A DNA stretch of 64,000 bases from Paludibacteraceae bacterium (GTDB lineage Bacteria > Bacteroidota > Bacteroidia > Bacteroidales > Paludibacteraceae): assembly GCA_017527905.1 (NCBI GenBank), contig JAFXPK010000030.1, forward strand, positions 62,001-126,000. Reading direction: 5' to 3'. The translations under genes and the position numbers were made by a program. Under the pieces are notes generated by a model. The model had not been told where the DNA came from. It did no database searches and was given only the letters and a program-made list of their open reading frames with translations. Position 1 is the first letter of the stretch; every line of letters begins with the position of its first letter. This document shows, piece after piece, positions 50,946 to 52,880 of this stretch.

Positions 50946-50953
50946 GAGTTAGT
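50926..50953 (+). repeat. AATTAAG heptamer repeat overlapping a stop codon
   Basis: Four consecutive heptamers (AGTTAAA, AATTAAG, AATTAAG, AGTTAGT) cover the 3' end of the glycosyltransferase gene. They give TAA/TAG at 50929, 50936, 50943 and 50950, one in each forward frame and the gene's own stop at 50943. Confidence 0.8.
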
Positions 50954-50966
50954 TGGGAAATTTAAA

Positions 50967-51026
50967 TTCCAGCCCTGAAAGGACGTAATAACCTAGGCAG
51001 GTGTATGACCTCCTGTGAATCGAAGG
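50967..51026 (+). repeat. Dispersed repeat, copy 1 (CCCTGAAAGG type)
   Basis: Begins TTCCAGCCCTGAAAGGACGT and continues with AGGCAGGTGTATGACCTCCT. The same element, better conserved, is at 52756-52816 in the same orientation. Each has a small hairpin at its start and another around AGGxGTGTGAACCCCT. The two copies flank the Rpn-like genes. I recall such elements as common intergenic repeats in Bacteroidales. Confidence 0.75.
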
Positions 51027-51089
51027 GACGACACATTATCGACGATTCAAAAGAACAAGGGGAGATTTAATACCTGTCCATCTTCAGAT

Positions 51090-51120
51090 TTTGCAGCATT
51101 AAAATATTTCTTTAATTTTG
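51090..51120 (+). promoter_or_regulatory. Bacteroidota-type promoter of the 51.1-51.6 kb unit
   Basis: TTTG (51090-51093), a 19-base spacer and TAATTTTG (51113-51120) match the consensus closely. Transcription would begin near 51125, at the first copy of a 19-base motif, and run through two terminator-like hairpins before the short ORF at 51286. Confidence 0.7.
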
Positions 51121-51152
51121 CAGTGTTCAAAATTTACATACGCGGTACATTA

Positions 51153-51175
51153 GGCCGATTTCGATCGGCTTTTTT
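51153..51175 (+). terminator. Intrinsic terminator-like hairpin in the leader
   Basis: GCCGAT (51154-51159) and ATCGGC (51164-51169) pair around a TTCG tetraloop, followed by six T (51170-51175). The position, about 30 bases after the predicted transcription start, suggests attenuation or a very short RNA. The sequence ATCGGC recurs at 51204-51209 and offers an alternative partner. Confidence 0.7.
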
Positions 51176-51206
51176 GTGCCATTTTATACATACTGATAGA
51201 GATATC

Positions 51207-51285
51207 GGCACGAAGTGTGCGGTAGTGGAAACACCCGCAAAGTTTTAGCGTATGTAAACTTGAACAACACTTCCGTGCCTTTTTT
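51207..51285 (+). ncRNA. Three-stem structured RNA ending in a U run (leader switch or attenuator candidate)
   Basis: P1 pairs 51207-51218 (GGCACGAAGTGT) with 51267-51279 with one bulged base. Inside are P2 (GCGG TA GTG, GAAA tetraloop, CAC CCGC, 51219-51238) and P3 (AAGTTT 51240-51245 with AAACTT 51256-51261), packed without gaps as a three-way junction. Six T follow (51280-51285), so it also looks like a terminator. It is in the leader of the small ORF at 51286. I do not recognise it as a named RNA family. Confidence 0.55.
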
Positions 51286-51432
51286 ATGTTCAAAAAATAC
51301 ATACGCATGAACAAACAATCAAAAAACAGCAAACTGCTGCAAGTCCTTAACAAAAACGAACAGCTTGGACGGCGGTTCGAAATCAATGGTCCAACCCAAC
51401 AACCATCATCCAACCTAAACGTCAGACTATGA
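51286..51432 (+). CDS. Small ORF, 48 residues, coupled to the Rpn-like fragment
   Basis: Starts MFKKYIRMNKQSKNSKLLQV and is basic and polar, with no membrane segment or known domain. The stop TGA overlaps the ATG of the next gene (ATGA, 51429-51432), the usual sign of translational coupling. The first seven codons lie over the third copy of a 19-base motif that can pair with the leader. An alternative start is the ATG at 51307. It may be a real leader or accessory protein or the remains of a longer Rpn-type gene; I do not recognise it. Confidence 0.45.
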   Translation: MFKKYIRMNKQSKNSKLLQVLNKNEQLGRRFEINGPTQQPSSNLNVRL

Positions 51433-51641
51433 ATCCAATAGATTTAATCAAAGGTAAAAAGCTGACAAAACAGGAAGCCTGGTTGTTTTTGTTCAATTAC
51501 TTGCAGGATCTGGACGAGATTCCACAGGAAATCCTTGATGTCGCCGACGAAGGCATGCTGGCATTAATTGAAAGGGCTAAAATCTCTAATCTCTCAGAAG
51601 AGGAGCGTATTCAGTACGACGAAAGCCTGAAAAGGATGTAA
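51429..51641 (+). CDS. Rpn-family C-terminal-like short protein or remnant
   Basis: The 70-residue product aligns without gaps to the C-terminal region of the intact Rpn-like protein on the opposite strand: AWLFLFNYLQDLDEIPQEIL matches IWIYFFKNLGNMEFIDPSVY, and ADEGMLALIERAKISNLSEE matches ADEGLRQLIKRAEVGALSEK. The nuclease domain is absent, so it is either a decayed transposase-like gene or a stand-alone C-terminal domain. It is coupled to the 48-residue ORF and ends before a two-way terminator. Confidence 0.6.
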   Translation: MNPIDLIKGKKLTKQEAWLFLFNYLQDLDEIPQEILDVADEGMLALIERAKISNLSEEERIQYDESLKRM

Positions 51642-51661
51642 TGACCATTTTACTAAAACGG

Positions 51662-51696
51662 AAAAAGCAGCGAACAATCATATTCGCTGCTTTTTT
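51662..51696. terminator. Bidirectional intrinsic terminator
   Basis: AGCAGCGAA (51666-51674) and TTCGCTGCT (51683-51691) form a perfect 9-bp stem with loop CAATCATA. An A run precedes it and a T run follows (51691-51696), so it works on either strand. It lies between the convergent Rpn-like fragment and the intact Rpn-like gene. Confidence 0.85.
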
Positions 51697-51713
51697 CATA
51701 TCAGATCGGATGA

Positions 51714-52616
51714 TCACAGATTATCAATCTCCTCCTTCGTCAAGTGGGTCACCTCCATGATGACCTCCACAGGCATCTTGCTCTGTTTCATCTCTTTGGC
51801 GACTTGGGCGATACCCTGCTGCATACCTTGTTGCATACCTTGGGCAATGCCCTGCTGCATACCTTGGGCAATGCCCTTCTGCATGCCGTCCGCCATGCCA
51901 CGCTCGTAGCCTTGCTTCTCCATGTCGATCTCGTCGGCCAGGAGCTTCATGCTGGCCTCATACTGGTCATACTCCTTCTCGCTGAGGGCTCCCACCTCGG
52001 CGCGCTTGATGAGCTGCCGAAGTCCCTCGTCAGCCCGCTCATATACAGATGGGTCTATAAATTCCATATTGCCTAGGTTTTTGAAGAAATAAATCCAAAT
52101 GTTCCGCGTCGTGATATCTTTCCTATCAAACTCGAAATGAGGCAAAGATACGAAATATTTTCGCATTCTGTCCCAAAATTCTTTGCCCGTGTCCAGATCG
52201 CACTCGGCCGTGCGGGTCAGCACCTTGGTCAGGCCCATGCCGGGGCGACCCACGATGAAAATCCCCATGATACGGGAGATGTCCTCCTGCATCTCCGACC
52301 ATTGGAAGCCCTTCTTGAACTTCCGCCGCATCAAATTATAGACATAAAAACTGGAACGGGTCTTGAAGAACCGTTGCGTGCTGTTCTGCATCTCGATCAG
52401 GATATGGTCGCCCGTCTCCGTCGTGCAGAGGAGGTCGAAAATCACCCCACGCCCCTCGTGCGCGTAACGGGGTGTCTCCACGTTCTCGAATTTCACACTC
52501 GTAATCTTCTCGCAGTCGCCGTCGAGGATAGCGTTCAGGAAAGATTTCATAATCGTTTCGTCCTGCATGCAGAACTTAAATCCGAAGTCGCTCTTCAGAT
52601 CGATGTACTTTGCCAT
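51714..52616 (-). CDS. Rpn-family recombination-promoting nuclease / PD-(D/E)XK transposase-like protein
   Basis: Matches the Bacteroidota PDDEXK_2/Rpn group: AKYIDLKSDFGFKFCMQDE at the start, NAILDGDCEKITSVKFENVE, and the nuclease core FDLLCTTETGDHILIEMQN with the acidic Asp and the E-x-Q pair. The C-terminal tail has repeats of GMQQ/GIAQ encoded by a near-repeat DNA stretch (about 51810-51895), then a short helical end. I use the ATG at 52616; a longer frame up to 52733 lacks family similarity. It is one of the few minus-strand genes. Confidence 0.87.
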   Translation of the reverse strand: MAKYIDLKSDFGFKFCMQDETIMKSFLNAILDGDCEKITSVKFENVETPRYAHEGRGVIFDLLCTTETGDHILIEMQNSTQRFFKTRSSFYVYNLMRRKFKKGFQWSEMQEDISRIMGIFIVGRPGMGLTKVLTRTAECDLDTGKEFWDRMRKYFVSLPHFEFDRKDITTRNIWIYFFKNLGNMEFIDPSVYERADEGLRQLIKRAEVGALSEKEYDQYEASMKLLADEIDMEKQGYERGMADGMQKGIAQGMQQGIAQGMQQGMQQGIAQVAKEMKQSKMPVEVIMEVTHLTKEEIDNL

Positions 52617-52680
52617 ACAATTATTTTTTATGTAGTTAACAAAAAGGTAGAAATCATCTTCAGGGAAGAATCTTTCGGTG

Positions 52681-52688
52681 CAAAGATA
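52681..52688 (-). promoter_or_regulatory. Candidate -7 element for the Rpn-family gene
   Basis: Read on the minus strand this is TATCTTTG, a perfect TAnnTTTG match, about 65 bases before the start codon. A TTG lies 17 bases upstream, slightly closer than the usual 19-21. Confidence 0.5.
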
Positions 52689-52755
52689 GAAAAAATAATT
52701 AAAAACAAGCATCAAGAAATGTAAATTATACATGTTTGATTAAGGGTGGATTAAC

Positions 52756-52816
52756 TTCCCAGCACTGAAAGGGCGTAACAGCACAGGCAGGGGTGTGAAC
52801 CCCTGTGAAGCACGAA
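52756..52816 (+). repeat. Dispersed repeat, copy 2 (CACTGAAAGGG type)
   Basis: Second, better-preserved copy of the element at 50967: TTCCCAGCACTGAAAGGGCG, then a GCACAGGCAGGGGTGTGAAC stretch ending CCCCTGTGAA. The AGGGGTGTGAACCCCT part folds as a hairpin. It lies just upstream of the intact Rpn-like gene and in the same orientation as copy 1. Confidence 0.75.
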
Positions 52817-52880
52817 CGTCTGTACGGTATCCCCCTGTTGACGACACGCCTCCTGCATATTGAAAAAAACCGCCGATAAA

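Follow-up and report, generated by a model that had tools for sequence, protein, structure and literature searches.

The C4 RNA of the phages P1 and P7 acts in trans and blocks translation at a ribosome-binding site (PMC5320573, PMC8198154, PMC12197685), having been cut out of a longer transcript by RNase P (PMC5320573). In the GenBank record of P1, the order of elements is promoter, putative a1/b1, the 77-nt C4, a2/b2, and then icd and ant1, which share 4 nt. In the P1 leader (755–815 of our extract L276), the putative b1 is immediately followed by an antiterminator, TGCGG/CCGCA, that competes with a terminator, CCGCA/TGCGG. A second RNA of the same Rfam clan (C4), c4-2 (RF02944), reportedly comes from a 2017 NAR study of 224 candidate structured RNAs. 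No assignment of a target to c4-2 was found in the literature that we searched; the family's defining paper lies outside that literature, and earlier antisense proposals may exist.

Here we consider a c4-2 locus in a window of 64,000 nucleotides (the whole stretch of DNA analysed) from a Paludibacteraceae bacterium. Judging from sequence comparison, positions 51088–51310 are the leader of a C4-type antisense-controlled operon, a reading to which we give a probability of roughly 85%. Four lines of comparison carry it: membership of the RNA family, complementarity of the RNA to two target sites (T1 and T2) together with the covariation of that pairing, the arrangement of terminator and antiterminator in a class of related loci, and the layout of the operon (Table 1).

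Table 1. Predicted features of the c4-2 leader, its operon and the convergent rpn gene (window coordinates)
Feature	Position	Strand	Details	Basis
Bacteroidota-type promoter	51090–51120	+	-33 TTTG 51090–51093, 19 bp, -7 TAATTTTG 51113–51120	sequence
T1, first c4-2 target site, at transcript 5' end	51124–51143	+	equivalent of P1 a1/b1	repeat, own-vs-swapped pairing, P1 annotation
Antiterminator	51143–51157	+	CGGU 51143–51146 / GCCG 51154–51157, 4 bp	conserved in class
Terminator 1, hairpin and T run	51152–51175	+	stem 51152–51159/51164–51171, then T's	
c4-2 antisense RNA	51206–51282	+	77 nt, three stem-loops	Rfam RF02944, fold
Antisense loop, a'/b' equivalents	51248–51265	+	GCGTATGTAAA pairs with variable box, TTGAAC with GTTCAA box	
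T2, second target site	51287–51306	+	equivalent of P1 a2/b2; ends directly 5' of ATG 51307	repeat, own-vs-swapped pairing, duplex
41-aa ORF, in P1 icd position	51307–51432	+	48 aa if started at 51286	weak PHROG_4615 match, E 0.011
70-aa stand-alone Rpn-segment homologue, in P1 ant position	51429–51641	+	overlaps 41-aa ORF by ATGA	
Terminator-like hairpin between operon and convergent rpn	51662–51695	.		sequence
Rpn-family nuclease gene, convergent neighbour	51714–52733	-		TIGR01784 E 3.8e-22, PF12784 E 9.2e-36

An earlier note, made from this DNA alone, had proposed a switch-like leader here, and all the sequences that it named lie at the positions it gave. Its promoter is present and is of the Bacteroidota type, with transcription predicted to start at about 51124–51126; a TANNTTTG-type box lies 5' of T1 in most other c4-2 loci. 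The hairpin that it placed ahead of a run of T's folds on its own with a dG of -9.9 (z -3.4), and its second, three-stem structure likewise folds significantly (z -3.4). The note recognised no named RNA family in this second structure, which the Rfam scan assigns to c4-2 at 47.9 bits (gathering score 41; E 2.5e-7; model positions 1–79). The RNA is present as a single copy in the window's genome, and its closing stem, with the T's after it, is also terminator-like. In the same scan, RF01695 (C4 proper) has no match listed up to an E of 5 within 50950–51800, where only the best overlapping clan member, c4-2, was kept; RF03163 (c4-a1b1) has no match in the window leader but does match P1.

The recurring motif on which the earlier note was built was given as 19 bases with two changes; the two changes are there, and the repeat is 20 nt long, its copies being T1 and T2. 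A pattern derived from it, with the two differing positions left open and up to three mismatches allowed, has two matches in the window as against 0.04 expected by chance. The loop sequence GCGTATGTAAACTTGAAC is complementary to both copies, as the note had seen, with duplex energies of -22.8 and -22.0 kcal/mol, the latter for T2.

To ask whether this complementarity is maintained, each c4-2 loop was paired with the flanks on either side of it and with those of all other loci. Searching Bacteroidales, the window's GTDB family and the phylum with the c4-2 model gave 53 loci, or 51 without two copies identical to the window. In these 51, a set chosen by the Rfam model alone, loops pair better with their own flanks than with swapped ones, both upstream at T1 (7.73 versus 5.74 bp) and downstream at T2 (6.69 versus 4.85 bp; p<5e-5 in each case, 0/20,000 permutations). 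The difference recurs as duplex energy in 38 loci thinned for relatedness and including viral ones (z -12.9 and -14.9), and as base pairs in 22 loci of the window's layout, class B below (T1, 9.45 versus 4.88 bp, z 15.6; T2, 7.5 versus 5.04 bp, z 11.1), part of the IMG/VR set behind these 38-locus and 22-locus tests having been picked by pairing itself, that is, by what the tests measure. Because pattern searches of viral contigs had returned many chance or C4-proper matches, a filter on closing stem or pairing was applied to the loci; one further pattern scan found nothing.

Across loci, T1 lies just 3' of the TANNTTTG-type promoter box and T2 at the start codon of the next ORF. The loop is the most variable part of the RNA and tracks T1 and T2, the second box covarying in six forms (GTTCA-TGAAC, GTCA-TGAC, GTCTA-TAGAC, GCTA-TAGC, GTTA-TAAC and GTCC-GGAC), and even paralogues in one genome can have different loop/target pairs. 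Loop and targets thus vary in step, which is the signature of antisense recognition. Since the three window-type copies are virtually identical, this signal comes from the other loci, and a clear T2 is missing in some of the relatives (L005, L006, L010, L013 and L014). Among annotated phage records, no DNA is similar to the window leader and almost none to its relatives.

As in P1, antirepressors are frequent products of the operon in Bacteroidales phage relatives. Among viral and genomic loci of the order, a protein of this type is encoded by the first or second gene in six (L016, L056, L060, L061, L078 and L182), with PHROG matches down to 1e-52, and a KilA-N-like protein lies further downstream in L021. 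Loci L025–L053, except L034, belong to a genus of the same class whose genomes measure about 5 Mb, with two to six c4-2 copies per positive genome; these copies have differing loop/target pairs and mostly lie upstream of a conserved 77-aa protein that has no family match above the cut-off. Tandem c4-2 copies or c4-2-like repeats in series occur in L031/L048, L032/L050 and L011.

The loci fall into two layouts. In class A, seen in most Bacteroidales loci outside the window's family and in the same-class multi-copy genus, T1 runs straight into c4-2; as the reading frame varies, we do not claim a leader peptide starting in T1 of these loci. In class B, a terminator stands between T1 and c4-2, as in roughly 20 IMG/VR viral loci and eight loci of the window's family, including that of the window. 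Both the stem of terminator 1 (own 5.38 versus swapped 4.0 bp, z 6.7) and a competing antiterminator (4.31 versus 3.66, p 3e-4) covary in 26 class-B loci; the 5' arm of the antiterminator overlaps the c4-2 site in 23 of the 26, and its 3' arm overlaps the 5' arm of the terminator in 25. For 25 class-B loci together with P1, the antiterminator score is 14.2 as compared with 9.5 in shuffled spacers (z 8.2); 88% of cases, versus 24% of shuffles, have a strong antiterminator that overlaps the c4-2 site. At the level of the class, terminator and antiterminator are mutually exclusive and the antiterminator lies within reach of c4-2, an arrangement that is weak in the window copy: there the antiterminator overlaps the T1 pairing site by 1 nt, as well as the 5' arm of terminator 1, and scores 10 against the class mean. 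On the strength of the conserved arrangement, binding of c4-2 at T1 is predicted to favour termination, a feedback step that is least certain in the window because the antiterminator there has only 4 bp.

This conserved competition differs from the short ones in the earlier note. Of the three competitions it proposed, that of the loop for the 5' end and the start-codon region holds, whereas GTGCC (51176) with GGCAC (51207) and GCCGAT (51154) with ATCGGC (51204) do no better than chance in homologues (own-versus-swapped p=0.44 and p=0.79, respectively) and are judged coincidental. A candidate pairing of the bases after the U run of terminator 1 with the end of T1 (GGYAC:GURCC) was dropped as weak (p=0.013 with G-U pairs, 0.14 with Watson-Crick pairs only).

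From these comparisons we infer the following mode of action. Transcription would begin at T1, and RNA polymerase that passes terminator 1 would make the 77-nt c4-2 RNA. The loop of this RNA would act in trans by pairing with T2 and masking the start region of the 41-aa ORF; by way of the ATGA overlap, the block would also silence the translationally coupled 70-aa Rpn-segment protein, whatever role that protein may have. On new transcripts the loop would pair with T1 and thereby remove the 5' arm of the antiterminator, in most relatives and weakly in the window; with the antiterminator lost, terminator 1 would form and transcription would stop early, giving negative feedback. Alternatively, in the free leader T1 may pair in cis with the c4-2 loop. 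In this model, the best supported of those considered, the translational block at T2 is the firmer step and attenuation at T1 the more tentative; taken alone, we would put the feedback step at even odds. Other uses of T1, as a decoy or in the cis fold, could coexist with attenuation.

What the operon is for is a separate matter. On the basis of comparison with relatives, its first ORF, to which the earlier note gave 48 residues, probably starts at ATG 51307 directly 3' of T2, and hence has 41. The product of the second has 37% identity (E 1e-12) to residues 205–263 of the convergent Rpn, is also homologous to similar segments encoded elsewhere in the genus, and is predicted to be all helical (pLDDT 86.7), with no fold match to this model among PDB entries or viral models. 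In a further genome of the genus, the gene for a 77%-identical, 74-aa homologue lacks a c4-2 directly upstream; gene and RNA are therefore separable. This c4-2-free homologue (L250, 1300–2100) adjoins a full rpn gene and a divergent helix-turn-helix-like ORF.

In Rpn systems, small antitoxins may be encoded separately (PMC10327210). The Rpn/RpnS systems described there, whose intragenic antitoxin RpnS matches the C-terminal tail of Rpn and blocks the cognate RpnL, resemble the window in that a small stand-alone Rpn-derived protein lies beside a full rpn and in the 4-aa repeats of the Rpn tail, which in the window are encoded by 12-bp repeats (51803–51898). However, the 70-aa protein aligns ahead of that repeat tail and has no fold match, and we do not call it an RpnS antitoxin. 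Downstream, the rpn-derived ORFs differ among the near-identical loci L001, L019 and L020. On either side of the c4-2/Rpn unit (~50968–51020 and 52757–52807) lies a diverged copy of a dispersed repeat, some 50 bp long, which reads CTGAAAGGgCGTAAyA...GGCAGGnGTnTGAnCnCCTGTGAA and, with 52745–52820 as query, has 37 matches in the genome.

The operon could be a toxin-antitoxin-like module, in which c4-2 keeps a harmful 41-aa or 70-aa protein off as C4 does the P1 cell-division inhibitor Icd. Such a module overlaps with the C4-type antisense reading and differs from it only in the purpose of the operon. The 41-aa ORF does occupy the icd position, and in class-A relatives, with as many as six copies on the chromosome, it is single small proteins that are controlled, but the 70-aa protein resembles a helical segment of Rpn and not its nuclease core, and we consider this purpose possible, if somewhat unlikely.

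With C4-type antisense control retained, T1 might still be only a decoy, the short transcript from T1 to terminator 1 soaking up c4-2 with no feedback attenuation. Terminator 1 would release an RNA of about 50 nt bearing T1, and the shortness of the window antiterminator fits this idea. So do the cofolding energies: c4-2 gains -6.6 kcal/mol with the T1 RNA, more than the small -2.4 kcal/mol of whole c4-2 with the T2 mRNA, where c4-2 has to unfold in part. A pure decoy would, however, need no antiterminator, and one overlapping the c4-2 site is conserved far beyond shuffles and also present in P1, which leaves a T1 that is nothing but a decoy unlikely.

The minimum free energy fold of 51124–51330 (-60.8 kcal/mol, z -5.4) has T1 paired with the c4-2 loop in cis. 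This is exactly the pairing expected of a cis switch, in which nascent T1 would break the closing stem of c4-2 (terminator 2) and admit transcription to the operon, with c4-2 working mainly in cis. Such a switch would have no role for the conserved T2 copy or for a separate antiterminator, and C4 of P1 is described as trans-acting; we regard it as quite unlikely.

The earlier note's description of an RNA switch remains apt in that the leader is a control element made of RNA, with two terminators and pairings that exclude each other, but not as regards ligand sensing, the key pairing being antisense as in P1 C4. A metabolite riboswitch or tandem attenuator would share the promoter, the two terminator-like hairpins and the exclusive pairings; its would-be conserved ligand pocket, however, is the very loop that varies most and tracks its targets, no riboswitch family was matched in the Rfam scan of the window leader, and the downstream genes are diverse small ORFs and antirepressors of no single pathway, all of which makes it very improbable. 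Chance repeats, the note's own reservation, would account for the two short extra pairings only and are scarcely credible for the core pairing in view of the 0.04 matches expected and of the own-versus-swapped results in 51, 38 thinned and 22 class-B loci; the note had named variation without compensation in homologues as evidence against its model, and in the core pairing the changes are compensated.

There is also a wider hypothesis, in which our confidence is evenly balanced: that in C4-family RNAs, from P1 to Bacteroidota phages, one RNA silences a start codon and also switches a conserved attenuator in its own leader through an a1/b1-type site, limiting its own synthesis; that such modules have passed from antirepressor operons of phages to genes of the chromosome like the Rpn-segment operon; and that each loop evolves with its targets, so that the pairs make up an orthogonal specificity code. 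As the RNA family itself is already catalogued, what is new here is limited. What is gained is a target and a proposed mechanism for a family typed merely 'sRNA', a link from it to antirepressor control in Bacteroidota phages, and, for the upstream a1/b1 sites listed as 'putative' in the P1 record, a role that can be tested. One genome can hold up to six c4-2 copies, and antisense/target pairs of this kind, orthogonal by nature, would also be useful regulatory parts.

Among known systems, attenuators of the pT181 type (PMC3753616) are alike in that binding of an antisense RNA to the leader favours a terminator over an antiterminator, but in the window the antisense lies on the same strand inside the transcript that it would control, and also matches the start-codon region. 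With RF02944 the agreement extends across the full model, above the gathering score; Rfam does not type this family 'antisense', and its target sites are derived here by covariation. Strict membership of C4 appears to fail, because the RF01695 and RF03163 models are unmatched and the antirepressor target is absent from the window operon. The order of fixed and variable boxes and the type of promoter also differ from those of P1 and P7, and the closing stem of the window RNA is followed by a T run. In its working, nevertheless, the window locus would be C4-like, and its layout agrees with that of the P1/P7 C4/immI operon nearly part for part: a promoter, an a1/b1-like site, a terminator, a 77-nt three-stem RNA, an a2/b2-like site and a small ORF, overlapped through ATGA by a second; an antiterminator/terminator pair in the position that follows b1 in P1; and an RNA whose loop is complementary to two parts of its own transcript, a site upstream and the start of the following ORF.
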